34,064 nucleotides of DNA from Candidatus Bathyarchaeota archaeon. GTDB lineage: Archaea; Thermoproteota; Bathyarchaeia; Bathyarchaeales; Bathyarchaeaceae. This document shows, piece by piece, positions 4,597 to 31,353 of this stretch. The notes below the pieces were generated by a model. The model did not search any database. It had not been told where the DNA came from and saw nothing but the letters and a program-made list of their open reading frames with translations. Each line of letters begins with the position of its first letter. The first letter of the stretch is position 1. The stretch covers positions 1 through 34,064 of the forward strand of contig JAUWZP010000012.1 of assembly GCA_030615265.1 (NCBI GenBank), in the 5' to 3' direction. Made by a program: the position numbers and the translations under genes.

Positions 4597-4723
4597 ATTC
4601 GAAAAGAACGAGAAGCCATATTCTTCGCTTTCCAATCATGAATTAAGAAACAGGCACGCACCAACCCAGCAATCCTTATAAGTATAAAACTAATTGAACT
4701 GAATAAATTGGGAGACGGAAAAG

Positions 4724-4903
4724 TTGGAAGAAAAAGAACAAATGGTGCTCAAAGCCATGGAAAAAGCTGGAAAACCAGTGAGACCAGGAGAGGTTGCGAA
4801 GATGGTCGGTCTAGCCAGCGACGAAGTGTCCAAGATCATAAAAAGCTTGAAAAAGAAGGGAAAGGTTACTTCTCCTAAAAGATGCTTTTACGCGCCAGCA
4901 TGA
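4724..4903 (+). CDS. Small winged-helix/HTH protein (59 aa), TTG start
   Basis: TTG start translates to LEEKEQMVLKAMEKAGKPVRPGEVAKMVGLASDEVSKIIKSLKKKGKVTSPKRCFYAPA*; not in the ORF track; GGGAGA SD-like sequence upstream. Confidence 0.7.
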   Translation: MEEKEQMVLKAMEKAGKPVRPGEVAKMVGLASDEVSKIIKSLKKKGKVTSPKRCFYAPA

Positions 4904-5002
4904 TAATAACTTAGCTCTACGCGGGGCATAGCCAGGAAGTTTTAATCATAGAGAAAATAAGGGAAGGGCGCGACTAAGTTTTTCAGAATTCTCAGAAATC
5001 AT

Positions 5003-5245
5003 CTATCTGCCCTTCACCGCCTGAACAGCTTTCACGAATGTTAGTTTCGACTTATTTTTCAGCTTGAAAGTCTGCATCATCTTCTGCACAATCAATTTTT
5101 CTATTATTTTTGACCCTTCTTCTCCTAAGAGAAATGTTATTGTCTGCTTGAAAACTTCCGGGTGTTCAGGTATCTCCTCCTTTCTCAATTGAGCATTCTT
5201 CTCGATATAGTGATATATGACATGTTCAGCGCGTTTGCCTAACAC
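5003..5245 (-). CDS. Conserved-looking small protein of unknown function (N-terminus uncertain)
   Basis: 80-aa ORF HVIYHYIEKNAQLRKEEIPEHPEVFKQTITFLLGEEGSKIIEKLIVQKMMQ; the frame stays open upstream of the GTG start. Confidence 0.5.
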   Translation of the reverse strand: MLGKRAEHVIYHYIEKNAQLRKEEIPEHPEVFKQTITFLLGEEGSKIIEKLIVQKMMQTFKLKNKSKLTFVKAVQAVKGR

Positions 5246-5466
5246 CTGTAAGCTGTCGTCTATGCATTTAATGATCCTTTGATTTAGACTGATCGATGTT
5301 GACAGTACGCATCACCAAAACTTCACATCAATCATTTGCTTGGACTTTCCACAACCATTGTAGATTTTGACGCCGAAGTTTCCTCAGTTTCGAAGAGGGA
5401 ATAGTTTATTTTGTACGAAATAAAGATAAGTTTTTCGCATGTTTTAAAAATGCAGGAGGTGAATCT

Positions 5467-5652
5467 TTGAAAAGAATAATCGTTCTCGCTCTTGTCCTCG
5501 TTGTCTTCATGTTTGCTACCACCATTGCAACGGCAACGATCAGCATGCCTGAAGTAAACATAGATCAGGCTTTAAGCACAGAAAAGAGTATCCTTTACGC
5601 CGACCCAATCGACGGAGGACCACCAGGAAGAATCACCGGAGTGAAAAAGTGA
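5467..5652 (+). CDS. Small secreted peptide precursor (61 aa)
   Basis: Strong SD (GGAGGTG) then TTG; KR + hydrophobic signal peptide (MKRIIVLALVLVVFMFATTIATA) and short polar tail. Confidence 0.65.
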   Translation: MKRIIVLALVLVVFMFATTIATATISMPEVNIDQALSTEKSILYADPIDGGPPGRITGVKK

Positions 5653-5688
5653 AGTCTTATAAGTCTTTAAGAACGCAAAATATGACGA

Positions 5689-6795
5689 TTGGTGTTGCAG
5701 CCAAAACTTGACTCTCTAGACATGAAGATTATAGCAGCCCTGGTGGCTTGTGGTCCTAGAAACCTCGCTGAAGTTTCGAGAAGAACAGAAATATCTCCAA
5801 CGACGATTCAGTACAGACTAAAAACCCTTTCTTCCCATTTTTCTTTAAGATTCTTCACCAACATTTACCATGTAAATTTGGGTCTCAAAAAAGCCATAGT
5901 CATGCTGGAGGCCGAACCTGGGCGAGAAGAATTACTGCTGGAATGTCTGAAAGTTAATGGTTTTTGGATTTATTTGGCTCCAATCTATGGTGCGACCCAA
6001 GGTTACATAGGGGTTTACACGATCCCATTAAATTACACTGCCGAATTTGAAAGATTTCTCGGTGAACTTAAGAAGTTAGGCGTAGCCCGAAGCGTCCAAC
6101 ACATATGGACCACATCGCTGCGAAGAGTCAACTTAATAGGAACATGGTTTGATTACGCGACTGAGAAATGGACATTTCAATGGGAGAATTGGGTTAATGA
6201 GATTCCAAGTCAACCAACTAAACTTCCATACACCTTGGAAGACCCTAAGCAATTTCCCATCTTGGCTGATGGGCGTGACATGTTCATTCTTAAAGAACTC
6301 GAGAAAAATGCAACGGTTTCCTTTAGTGGACTTGCAGAGAGGCTTGGAATCACGCCGCCCGCAGTGAGATACCGTTATCAGAAACTCATAAGACTTAATT
6401 TGATCGAAGGTTTCGAGATCCACTTATATCAGTTCCAGACGATGCCCTTTGAAGCCTTCTATTTTGTTTTCACTTTTGCGAACTATGAAAAATATGCTAG
6501 ATTTGCCGCGTCGCTTCTCGATAAACCTGTCGTTGTTTCGTTAGGTAAGATTTTAGGTCAAAACTCGATGATTGCATTTCTGTATATCCCTATGCAAGAA
6601 TTCAAGGGGTTTATGAAAGCCCTGTCCAGACTGAGAGCAATGGGATGGCTTCAGAACTACTTCTATGTTCATCTAGACCTCGACAAAGACTGGAGGCAAA
6701 CCTTCTCGTATGAATACTTCAAACAAGGGTCATGGATTTACGATCACAAGGAGCACATTAGAACTCTGCGAGCACTCTCATCTAAGATGAGTTAA
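5689..6795 (+). CDS. Lrp/AsnC-type transcriptional regulator with two HTH domains
   Basis: Two HTH motifs (LAEVSRRTEISPTTIQYRLKTL and FSGLAERLGITPPAVRYRYQKLIRLNLIEGFEIHL). Confidence 0.75.
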   Translation: MVLQPKLDSLDMKIIAALVACGPRNLAEVSRRTEISPTTIQYRLKTLSSHFSLRFFTNIYHVNLGLKKAIVMLEAEPGREELLLECLKVNGFWIYLAPIYGATQGYIGVYTIPLNYTAEFERFLGELKKLGVARSVQHIWTTSLRRVNLIGTWFDYATEKWTFQWENWVNEIPSQPTKLPYTLEDPKQFPILADGRDMFILKELEKNATVSFSGLAERLGITPPAVRYRYQKLIRLNLIEGFEIHLYQFQTMPFEAFYFVFTFANYEKYARFAASLLDKPVVVSLGKILGQNSMIAFLYIPMQEFKGFMKALSRLRAMGWLQNYFYVHLDLDKDWRQTFSYEYFKQGSWIYDHKEHIRTLRALSSKMS

Positions 6796-16157: not shown

Positions 16158-16254
16158 CAATTTAAGACGAACTTTTCAACCAGTGTCTTTTGTGCTTTTG
16201 AAGAGCAAAGTCTTAAGCATCGGTTTCTCTTTGTTATTCTCTTGAGGAGGAAAA

Positions 16255-16962
16255 ATGGAAAACAAGGCTTGGGAACAGCTTGTTCAAAGTTTGATTAGAC
16301 AGCGCATTCTTAAGTCGCCTCACGTGATTCGTGCGTTACGCAAGGTTTCGAGGGAGCAGTTTCTGCCTGAACGAGTGAAATCCTACGCGAACGTGGATTC
16401 TCCGTTTCCAATAGGGTTTGGGCAGACGATTTCGGCGCCACACTGCTAGGCTTAGCTACGCCTAGCTGGGCGAAACATGGTTTCAATAATGAATGAAGCC
16501 CTAGAGTTGAAAGCAGGGCACAAAGTGTTGGAGATAGGTGCAGGTTCAGGCTGGCACGCTTCCACCATAGCAGAGACTGTAGCTCCATCGGACATGGCGA
16601 AAGAAAAGTGGGGACATGTGTACACTGTGGAAATCGTTAAAGGACTAGCTGAATTCGCTCGCAATAATGTGGAGCGTGCAGGCTACGGCAACCGTGTCAC
16701 AATTGTTCATGGAGACGGCTCCCAAGGATATGCTGAAAAAGCTCCTTACGACCGTGTTTTGGTGACCGCCGCAGCGCCAGACATCCCCAAACCACTGATT
16801 GACCAGTTAAAAAACGGCGGAGTTCTTGTTATCCCCGTTGGAGGACTCTATCTTTATCAAACCTTGTTTCGAGTTCGCAAGGTTGATGACAAAATTACTG
16901 AGGAGAACTTGGGCGGCGTAGCCTTTGTTCCGTTAACAGGCAAGTATGGACATAGAATCTGA
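16255..16962 (+). CDS. pcm: Protein-L-isoaspartate O-methyltransferase, split by a 33-nt intron-like insertion (exons 16255-16441 and 16475-16962)
   Basis: Exon 1 ...FPIGFGQTISAPH; exon 2 MVSIMNEALELKAGHKVLEIGAGSGWHAS...GKYGHRI; joined CDS is 675 nt, in frame. Confidence 0.85.
16442..16474 (+). other. Candidate archaeal BHB-type mRNA intron in pcm (33 nt)
   Basis: Central helix CGCC(16436-16439)/GGCG(16469-16472), bulges AC^A (16440-16442) and AA^A (16473-16475), inner stem GCTAGGC(16445-16451)/GCCTAGC(16460-16466); contains two in-frame TAGs. Confidence 0.7.
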
Positions 16963-17047
16963 CCTGCAAAGCGCCTCTTTTTTCCTGTTCAAAATGCGTG
17001 CATAAAGCCATAAATCTTATTAAAAATCTCATAGGTACCTACCGTCC

Positions 17048-27618: not shown

Positions 27619-28458
27619 TCACTTCCTTTGCAAATCTTCGATTGAAAGAGGGGGAAGGCTTTCCGCTGAACTGGGAATCGTCGCAAGCCTGTATTCCTTT
27701 GGCTTTGGAATGAGGTCTTCAATGTGTATGAGTTCTTTTTCCAACTGTCTTTTTGTTATTTCTTCAAAATCCTTTTGCAATTCCTCAAGGCTTTGTGTTA
27801 AATCGGCAACCCAATGTTCGCCGTTTCTTGTTTCAGGTGGATTCTCCTTGATGGTTTCGTTTAGTTTGTTGATGAGCTTTCGGACATACTTGATTGAAGG
27901 CTCTAAACCGAGGAGTTGTTTAAGATACTCCGAGGGAGTTTTATACGGTTTTCCTTCTCTTTCTGCAATCCATCGGGCGAGAATTCGCTCAACTTTCTTG
28001 TTTCTTATACCGAATTTCCGGTATGCTCCAAGCGGAGTCAGCTCAGTTTCTGGCTGTTCAGAATTGTTCACCTTAAAGCCGAATGGATACTGCCGTTCGC
28101 ATGTTGAGCATAGGATGCTGATTGTTGTTGTGAAGCCTCTCTGGCGGATTCTCGTCCAAGTTGTGTTGAACTCGCCTTTGAAAGCATAGAGTTTCTCAAA
28201 GTAATCTACAAAGGATTTTGCTTCTCGATGGATCTGATTCCACTTTTTGGTGAGTTCAGCAGCATCCTTTAATATCGGCCATAAATTTCGGTAGCTTTCG
28301 TTTCCACTGGTGCTTGCGATGTCTTCTTGCTCGATTTTTAGTTTTTCAAATCCACAGCTGCAATGCCACTCAATTAAAGCGCCTAATTTAGGTTTTCTCA
28401 CATGAAGATTTTCAGGTACATCTATTTCAACAGTTAAACCTTCAACTCGAAATTTCAT
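27619..28458 (-). CDS. Hypothetical protein with Cys pairs (accessory)
   Basis: 279-aa ORF; HCSCGF and CSTCERQYPFGF; no recognised family. Confidence 0.55.
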   Translation of the reverse strand: MKFRVEGLTVEIDVPENLHVRKPKLGALIEWHCSCGFEKLKIEQEDIASTSGNESYRNLWPILKDAAELTKKWNQIHREAKSFVDYFEKLYAFKGEFNTTWTRIRQRGFTTTISILCSTCERQYPFGFKVNNSEQPETELTPLGAYRKFGIRNKKVERILARWIAEREGKPYKTPSEYLKQLLGLEPSIKYVRKLINKLNETIKENPPETRNGEHWVADLTQSLEELQKDFEEITKRQLEKELIHIEDLIPKPKEYRLATIPSSAESLPPLSIEDLQRK

Positions 28459-28649
28459 AAAACAACCCAGCCCTTAAGTTGCATCTTCTCGCGAAGAGTT
28501 CGAGGCTCACGTGAAACATGCCTCTTCTCCTCTGGCTCACCGACTGAAGAGACAGCAGGTTTTTCCTTTTTCAGAACAGAATCCATGAAAGCTTTGAATT
28601 GCTGCCCTGACATGCTATCCTTAAGCCTGTGGAATTCAGTATTATTCAA
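28455..28649 (-). CDS. Small hypothetical protein, translationally coupled (ATGA) to 27619-28458
   Basis: 64-aa ORF overlapping the downstream ORF by 4 nt. Confidence 0.45.
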   Translation of the reverse strand: MNNTEFHRLKDSMSGQQFKAFMDSVLKKEKPAVSSVGEPEEKRHVSREPRTLREKMQLKGWVVL

Positions 28650-28678
28650 TGCAATAACTTGCTGGAGCTTCTTTTCCC

Positions 28679-28942
28679 TTGGCTTATCGTGCTGGGGGAT
28701 TATCTGTCTTTGCAGTTCTGGAAAGTTGGGAACCAGAGGAAAAAGAAGGCTTGGTGAGAAATAAGCGAATTCTCAAAATTCATGAAATGTTAATTCAAAA
28801 GCTCAGCAGCATTGGAACTGATTTTCTTGATTCAAAACTGAGGGCAGCATTGAGACTAAGGGTGCGAAATGATCTGGACATGGTTGTAATCGCAGCAGAA
28901 TTCCTTAAATTGTCCAAACGAGGAACTTTCAGAAGAGGCTAA
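28679..28942 (+). CDS. Hypothetical helical protein (start uncertain)
   Basis: Well-behaved C-terminal helical sequence; internal TTG/GTG start near LVRNKRILKIHEML possible. Confidence 0.45.
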   Translation: MAYRAGGLSVFAVLESWEPEEKEGLVRNKRILKIHEMLIQKLSSIGTDFLDSKLRAALRLRVRNDLDMVVIAAEFLKLSKRGTFRRG

Positions 28943-29208
28943 ACTCGGCGAACCGCAATCATTTGGATTTGGCTGACGCCCTCAACTTTTTGAATATTAT
29001 TTTCTATTTCGTCTAAGCCGCCAGATTTATCTTCTGGAAGCAGAATATGCGCAATTAACGCGATGAGTCCAAACGCCACGGGTTCCTCGGCGAACTTGTA
29101 AACCGAAGAGTCAGCGGGCATAGTCTTTTCTATCTTCTGTTTAAGCTGGTTCAGGTCTATATCAGTGCCTGTTGGGAATATCTTCATGGAAACCAAAACT
29201 TTTGCCAT
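28939..29208 (-). CDS. ef1b: Translation elongation factor aEF-1 beta
   Basis: MAKVLVSMKIFPTGTDIDLNQLKQKIEK...EEPVAFGLIALIAHILLPEDKSGGLDEIENNIQKVEGVSQIQMIAVRRV. Confidence 0.9.
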   Translation of the reverse strand: MAKVLVSMKIFPTGTDIDLNQLKQKIEKTMPADSSVYKFAEEPVAFGLIALIAHILLPEDKSGGLDEIENNIQKVEGVSQIQMIAVRRV

Positions 29209-29227
29209 CTGCGTTTCTCCGTGTCTC

Positions 29228-29419
29228 TCATGGTCCTTGAAAGCCGCATTTCGGGCAGCGGTAAGGTCTTCCGAATTTTCGGCATCTACTGCATCGCCAG
29301 ATTACGATCTCTCCACAGTTTGGGCAGGAAAACTTTGTGGGTTCCGTGCCTGGCACTATGATTCTGTGGCATGATGTGCAGATTGGGATGGCTACTGTTG
29401 TGCTGGTTTTTTCAGACAT
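29228..29419 (-). CDS. Zinc-ribbon protein of the HVO_2753 type
   Basis: CTSCHRIIVPG...CPNCGE...CSRCRKFGRPYRCPKCGFQGP; directly upstream of ef1b. Confidence 0.85.
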   Translation of the reverse strand: MSEKTSTTVAIPICTSCHRIIVPGTEPTKFSCPNCGEIVIWRCSRCRKFGRPYRCPKCGFQGP

Positions 29420-29580
29420 TTCGACCCCTTCAAAGCAGTTTCGTTATGGATATTCTGTCTTATATATACTATGTTGAATAGCTGCCTTAGTTTGCATAAG
29501 GATTACAGAGAAAAAGCTTATTGAGAAACGGAGTGTAAGATGCTTGGAAGACACAACTTTATCGTAGAGTTGGCATCCTT

Positions 29581-30012
29581 ATGAAAGCAATTGAAGTCTT
29601 GTATGCCCGTGGACACGTAAATGTTCAGTTGACCCACAAAAGAACTTTCCAGATTACAAAAGAACTTTTCCTCTCCAAACGTGGCGACTGCGTCATTGCA
29701 GTTGGTGCAACCAAAGGAGCCACGGATTTGAGCCCCCAGTTTAGGGAAACAGCTCGGCATAAAAAGGCGCAAATAACAGTAATAATTGAGGTTGGCAACC
29801 TTGAGGAAGTTGTGAAAGCTCGAGGAAACGCTAGACTAATGTTCACTCACCCAAACGATTTGGTTGTGAGAAAAAGCAGGTATGTTTGCGGTCGAACCTT
29901 GGCTGTAAATGCTGATAAAGCAGCTTGCGACTTTTCAAGAAAACTTGCTGAGAGACTGCATAATCCCGAGCAGAGGGTTAAGGTCACGTTAATAGCTGAG
30001 ACCGCTACCTGA
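29581..30012 (+). CDS. DUF371-like conserved archaeal protein
   Basis: VLYARGHVNVQLTHKRTFQITKELFLSKRGDCVIAVGATKGATDLS. Confidence 0.8.
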   Translation: MKAIEVLYARGHVNVQLTHKRTFQITKELFLSKRGDCVIAVGATKGATDLSPQFRETARHKKAQITVIIEVGNLEEVVKARGNARLMFTHPNDLVVRKSRYVCGRTLAVNADKAACDFSRKLAERLHNPEQRVKVTLIAETAT

Positions 30013-31243: not shown

Positions 31244-31353
31244 TGGCGGGCCCGAGGGGAGTTGAACCCCTGACCATCGGATTAAGAGTTTCAGCCTTGG
31301 CTTAGTCAGAGTTAAGCCCAATCCGCCGCTCTACCTTGCTGAGCTACGGGCCC
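31244..31353 (-). tRNA. tRNA-Lys(CUU), CCA encoded, containing a ~33-nt intron
   Basis: Acceptor GGGCCCG/CGGGCCC, discriminator G, D-arm GCTC..GAGC, T-arm AGGGG TTCAACT CCCCT; anticodon loop TTCTTAA (CUU) after removing 31287-31319. Confidence 0.85.

Follow-up and report, generated by a model that had tools for sequence, protein, structure and literature searches.

The pcm gene of a Bathyarchaeia genome is interrupted by 33 nucleotides that are very probably (about 95%, judged by comparison of sequences) an archaeal bulge-helix-bulge (BHB) intron of mRNA, located inside a coding sequence. The interrupted gene occupies positions 16255-16962 of the window, by which we mean the whole 34,064-nt stretch of DNA that was analysed, and encodes the protein repair enzyme protein-L-isoaspartate O-methyltransferase (PCM). 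The window is contig 55 of the source genome (1.86 Mb, 119 contigs, 96% complete). In at least 106 genomes, pcm is interrupted at the identical nucleotide. These cover most of one order of Bathyarchaeia (which we take to be a class within the phylum Thermoproteota), further families, and lineages beyond the class. The insert in the window is therefore not due to chance.

The interrupted pcm gene and its predicted product

A sequence-only reading of the window had described pcm as split into two ORFs by an in-frame 33-nt insert with two TAG codons, whose removal restores a continuous gene. These observations were all confirmed. The ORFs are found at 16255-16449 (64 aa) and 16477-16962 (161 aa), and the frame-1 translation over the insert reads ...GQTISAPHC*A*LRLAGRNMVSI..., where asterisks are stops. 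Without 16442-16474, the codons GCG-CCA-CAC-ATG (A-P-H-M) are restored and the product is a continuous and complete PCM of 224 aa, which matches Pfam PCMT with 215.7 bits (residues 7-219). Taken singly, the two pieces match abutting parts of the PCMT profile with zero overlap (Table 1). Similarly, the spliced protein scores 218.8 bits against NCBIfam TIGR00080 (pimt), above the cut-off of 159.05, whereas each piece alone falls below it. No other obviously split gene was found in the window when the gaps at 4600-5700 and 28190-29600 and ten further ORFs were examined.

Table 1. Features of the interrupted pcm gene, in window coordinates (^ marks the cut).
Feature	Position	Strand	Details and evidence
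Shine-Dalgarno-like GAGGAGG	16244..16250	+	5' of the exon-1 start codon; sequence
pcm exon 1	16255..16441	+	codons 1-62 and base 1 of His codon 63; Pfam PCMT positions 4-60; dN well below dS in close relatives
Central helix, 5' strand CGCC (exon 1)	16436..16439	+	all 4 bp formed in 95/96; CACC/GGTG compensation in relatives
First 3-nt bulge AC^A, predicted 5' splice site 16441/16442	16440..16442	+	NC^N in 96/96
Putative BHB intron, 33 nt, phase 1	16442..16474	+	inside the His63 codon; site common to 106 genomes
Inner stem-loop, CUGCUAGGC / GCCUAGCUG, one U.U mismatch, 8-nt loop	16443..16468	+	two-sided changes at 7/7 tested pairs, 96 sequences
Central helix, 3' strand GGCG (intron)	16469..16472	+	covariation in relatives
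Second 3-nt bulge AA^A, predicted 3' splice site 16474/16475	16473..16475	+	AN^A in 95/96, TT^A in 1
pcm exon 2	16475..16962	+	remainder of His63, Met64 to stop; Pfam PCMT positions 61-208, contiguous with exon 1

An alternative is that pcm is truly split, with exon 1 decaying, or with the two ORFs translated separately, by re-initiation at the exon-2 ATG, and the products assembling. An in-frame ATG does open exon 2 as a full 161-aa ORF, and a Shine-Dalgarno-like site precedes this ATG in 13 of 107 intron-bearing loci. The remaining 94, including the window, have no such site there, whereas 88 of the 107 have one before exon 1, as in the window, where GAGGAGG precedes exon 1 and exon 2 lacks a counterpart. 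When intron carriers were compared in 13 close pairs, dN was well below dS for exon 1 as well as exon 2, which shows that exon 1 is conserved under purifying selection and is not decaying. Moreover, intron-free pcm genes keep the same His-Met codons within a single ORF, and the covarying BHB geometry described below has no role in a split gene. We thus regard a split gene as very improbable.

Distribution of the pcm insert

Nearly all strong pcm matches in the window's own family (28 genomes searched) were interrupted at the same place, while the gene was intact in two genomes (L008 and L010). Across the order and the class, we read 99 intron-bearing loci, representing 96 distinct sequences, together with many intron-free loci; JAFGNM010000027.1 (L063) is one of the contigs in which the intron is present. 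A covariance model built from these introns (R1) was then run on a sample of 400 genomes from the phylum, where it revealed more cases in family f10 as well as cases beyond the class, in the lineages f33, f34 and f43. Families f34 and f43 belong to one class, in which 5 of 7 genomes were positive by the model. All nine matches that were read lie in pcm, at the same base. In the total of 106 genomes, L063 and L136, which are duplicate records, count once, as do the two G074 contigs.

Comparison with the pcm of relatives had been proposed as a check by the sequence-only reading, which named an assembly error as an alternative; this is excluded by the 105 other genomes that carry the insert. The near-palindromic sequence of the insert could also be that of a DNA element, either a small mobile one or a hairpin. 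The covariance model, however, matched only once per genome and, in the window, only once significantly, which means that the insert is not repeated, and its site is common to 106 genomes. As the excess of G-U over A-C pairs reported below also points to RNA rather than DNA, we give an element or artefact of this kind almost no weight.

A conserved and covarying BHB fold

In the window sequence alone, three equal deletions (16442-16474, 16443-16475 and 16444-16476) give the same product, as had been noted. The first of these had been singled out as the BHB register, and every part of the proposed geometry was found there: the central helix CGCC/GGCG, the bulges AC^A and AA^A, the 8-nt loop, and an inner stem consisting of C-G, a U.U at the second inner pair and then GCUAGGC/GCCUAGC. 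The outer helix had been called weak and indeed consists of a single G-C pair in the window.

The relatives distinguish between the three registers. The first bulge follows CCU in 20 of the 96 distinct introns, and with U as its third base the unspliced codon is CUC or CUU, which does not encode His. Where exon 1 ends in CCU-C^U, only the BHB cut yields the His codon CAC, and such relatives thereby fix the register. Excision in this register leads to GCR-CCW-CAC-ATG (GCG/GCA-CCA/CCT-CAC-ATG; Ala-Pro-His-Met) in 96 of 96 introns, as in intron-free orthologues, with exon 1 always ending in GCR-CCW-C and exon 2 always starting with AC-ATG.

When folded, the window segment was more stable than its dinucleotide shuffles (z -2.28; 2 of 200 shuffles as low). 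However, in the isolated MFE structure, a near-equivalent of the BHB, 16441-16442 are paired with 16467-16468, and the first bulge is closed. This preference counts against the BHB reading, as does the U.U mismatch in the window. We consider the register in the window to be settled by the relatives' sequences, and not by the isolated MFE.

Of the 96 distinct introns, 91 have CGCC/GGCG as their central helix, three have CACC/GGTG and one has CGCC/GGTG. The three with the compensatory CACC/GGTG are L046, L110 and L150, and this helix recurs in four more genomes (L217-L220). A broken central pair (CGCC/GACG) occurs once, in L085, and counts against the BHB reading. The only universal pair of the outer helix is a G-C, to which an A-U is added in 35%. 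This also counts against the BHB reading and makes the motif a relaxed one; it fits the HBh' form, which is accepted by broad-specificity tRNA-splicing endonuclease (EndA; PMC6379350).

In the inner stem, changes on both sides occur at all seven tested pairs and up to six pair types are found at a single position (inner pair 6). Of 1148 cells, 95.1% were paired, compared with 81.3% after shuffling, which ignores relatedness, and 20.8-40.2% after sliding, which corrects for it; double changes were found in 212 cells versus 74.2 in the shuffles, again with relatedness ignored. G-U pairs (72 cells) outnumbered A-C (13 cells), which means that it is the sense-strand RNA that folds, under selection. 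In exon 1, the Ala codon is GCG in 93 of 96 intron carriers and in 11 of 23 intron-free pcm genes (p 5e-8, uncorrected for relatedness), so that a synonymous site follows the pairing.

Intron lengths range from 21 to 48 nt, with 24, 44 and 28 of the 96 being 0, 1 and 2 mod 3, respectively, and most of the introns could therefore not be read through. The longest, of 46-48 nt, were found in L121, L150 and L152, in which the apical part of the hairpin is G+C-rich. The lengths bear on another explanation, in which the ribosome passes the insert by translational bypassing or stop-codon readthrough, for example with pyrrolysine at TAG. Known bypass elements have a stable hairpin between the frames, as is the case here, and both stops in the window are TAG. 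Yet 72 of the 96 inserts shift the frame, and TGA or TAA replaces TAG in many relatives, which also led us to reject reassignment of the stop codon. A ribosome hopping from the Pro codon onto the ATG would skip the conserved His, and no landing codon matching Pro precedes that ATG. Bypassing or readthrough is hence most improbable.

We also rejected group I and group II introns, as the insert is 33 nt and their catalytic cores span hundreds of nt (Rfam gave no match in 16200-17000), and an intein, as the insert contains stops and, in those same 72 cases, is not a multiple of three in length.

Tested against what defines archaeal BHB introns, the pcm insert thus has the 4-bp central helix with two 3-nt bulges on opposite strands, an excision that restores the product, covariation at the RNA level, and EndA and a ligase in its host. 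A BHB intron in pcm mRNA, as the sequence-only reading proposed, is supported by the 96 distinct introns, which share one register and a covarying stem and occur in all three length phases.

Evolutionary history of the probable pcm intron

A quick tree of 147 spliced PCM proteins, unrooted and with many weak branches, requires a minimum of 13 switches between the intron-bearing and the intron-free state, compared with 37 for shuffled labels; its starred branches force three changes. Intron-free groups, such as L032-L034, L036/L037, L044/L060 and L010, are nested within intron carriers, which suggests that the intron has been precisely lost several times. Gains may also have occurred on the tree. 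As the site is identical to the base across classes, the distribution fits a single origin followed by vertical descent, loss and some transfer.

Family f10, which is distant from the window's order, has pcm introns of 21-22 nt, among the shortest (L153, L221, L223 and L224), possibly the result of a separate gain or of an old transfer. The intron-bearing pcm of L151 (G202, family f15) clusters with the window's family in the tree, while the genome itself falls outside that family's order; this would be explained by transfer or by a mis-binned contig.

Splicing machinery, tRNA introns and the cbf5 intron

The source genome encodes two EndA-type proteins. One (L154, 185 aa) has the complete Tyr, His and Lys triad, with 2cv8 and the Aeropyrum 3p1z as its best solved relatives, and the other (L155, 191 aa) has a different residue in place of the catalytic His. 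They are predicted to be the alpha and beta subunits of an (alpha-beta)2 EndA, a composition that recognises relaxed BHB motifs with broad specificity (PMC6379350). RtcB is also encoded. There are 38 tRNA matches in the genome, and ARAGORN placed introns of 20-43 nt in the tRNAs for Val, Leu, Arg (two), Cys, Lys and Pro. In the window it reported no tRNA without the intron option and, once introns were allowed, a tRNA-Lys(CTT) at 31244-31353 on the minus strand, with a 33-nt intron between bases 33 and 34.

The cbf5 gene served as an internal control. In the source genome (L251, G000:C32:4400-5700), a BHB intron splits the catalytic Asp codon at G|AT, and introns of 18-40 nt are found at this site there and in most relatives tested (L252-L261 and L264); two relatives, L262 and L263, are intron-free. 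The BHB is canonical or strict in most (outer helix GGGA/UCCC, central helix CCCU/AGGG). As Crenarchaeota have an intron at the same site, for which splicing was shown experimentally (PMC2738675), this lineage carries the well-known archaeal mRNA intron besides that of pcm. The cbf5 introns found here lie outside the orders described in that study. In L264 (G108:C11:291900-294700), cbf5 has, along with its putative intron, a 797-aa open frame containing an in-frame insert of ~1.5 kb that is perhaps an intein.

Proposed splicing of pcm mRNA and comparison with known systems

From these sequences, we infer cleavage and ligation of the pcm transcript in vivo, as well as the identity of the ligase. 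In the transcript, CGCC of exon 1 would pair with GGCG of the intron, leaving each of the opposite strands with one 3-nt bulge. The predicted (alpha-beta)2 EndA would cut AC^A and AA^A, and a ligase, most likely RtcB, would join the exons within the His63 codon, releasing the intron, possibly as a circle. Translation of the joined exons would then yield the continuous PCM, with the junction ...SAPHMV... and a tryptic peptide that would span ...GQTISAPHMVSIMNEALELK.

Standard annotation would label a working, conserved PCM as broken or split in the intron-bearing genomes. A second gene, with more than 100 natural intron variants and nested intron-free relatives, would mean that archaeal pre-mRNA splicing is no one-gene curiosity, and the pcm introns offer a large comparative set for the substrate requirements of EndA and for intron gain and loss. 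More speculatively, pcm and cbf5 could be two of many protein-coding genes with BHB introns in Bathyarchaeia and related lineages, the splicing being kept as an expression gate or as functional mini-circles, although we think this rather unlikely. If gating were true, protein output would depend on EndA/RtcB capacity.

As of 2020, the archaeal mRNA BHB introns on record were that of cbf5, in coding sequence, and one case in a 5' UTR (PMC7714728). A search confined to openly available journal papers found no report of a BHB intron in pcm. By this search, pcm would be the second archaeal gene with a conserved BHB intron inside its coding sequence.

The closest known system is the crenarchaeal cbf5 pre-mRNA intron (Watanabe 2002; Yokobori 2009, PMC2738675). 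Both introns are short, have a BHB within the coding sequence, are in phase 1 and interrupt a codon of a conserved motif. The cbf5 intron likewise has a patchy distribution with repeated loss, and the literature links it to hetero-oligomeric EndA. However, the pcm intron is located in another gene, in Bathyarchaeia and lineages outside it, its outer helix is nearly absent, and its splicing is one that we infer. The intron of Haloferax HVO_1309 (PMC7714728) is also an mRNA BHB and EndA substrate, as is predicted for pcm, but it lies in the 5' UTR, whereas the pcm intron breaks the reading frame and would have to be removed for the protein to be made. Finally, the pcm intron shares with archaeal tRNA introns, of strict or relaxed BHB, the 4-bp helix, 3-nt bulges in which the cut follows base two, and a similar length, which for the tRNA-Lys in the window is the same 33 nt; the difference is that the RNA hosting the pcm intron is an mRNA.
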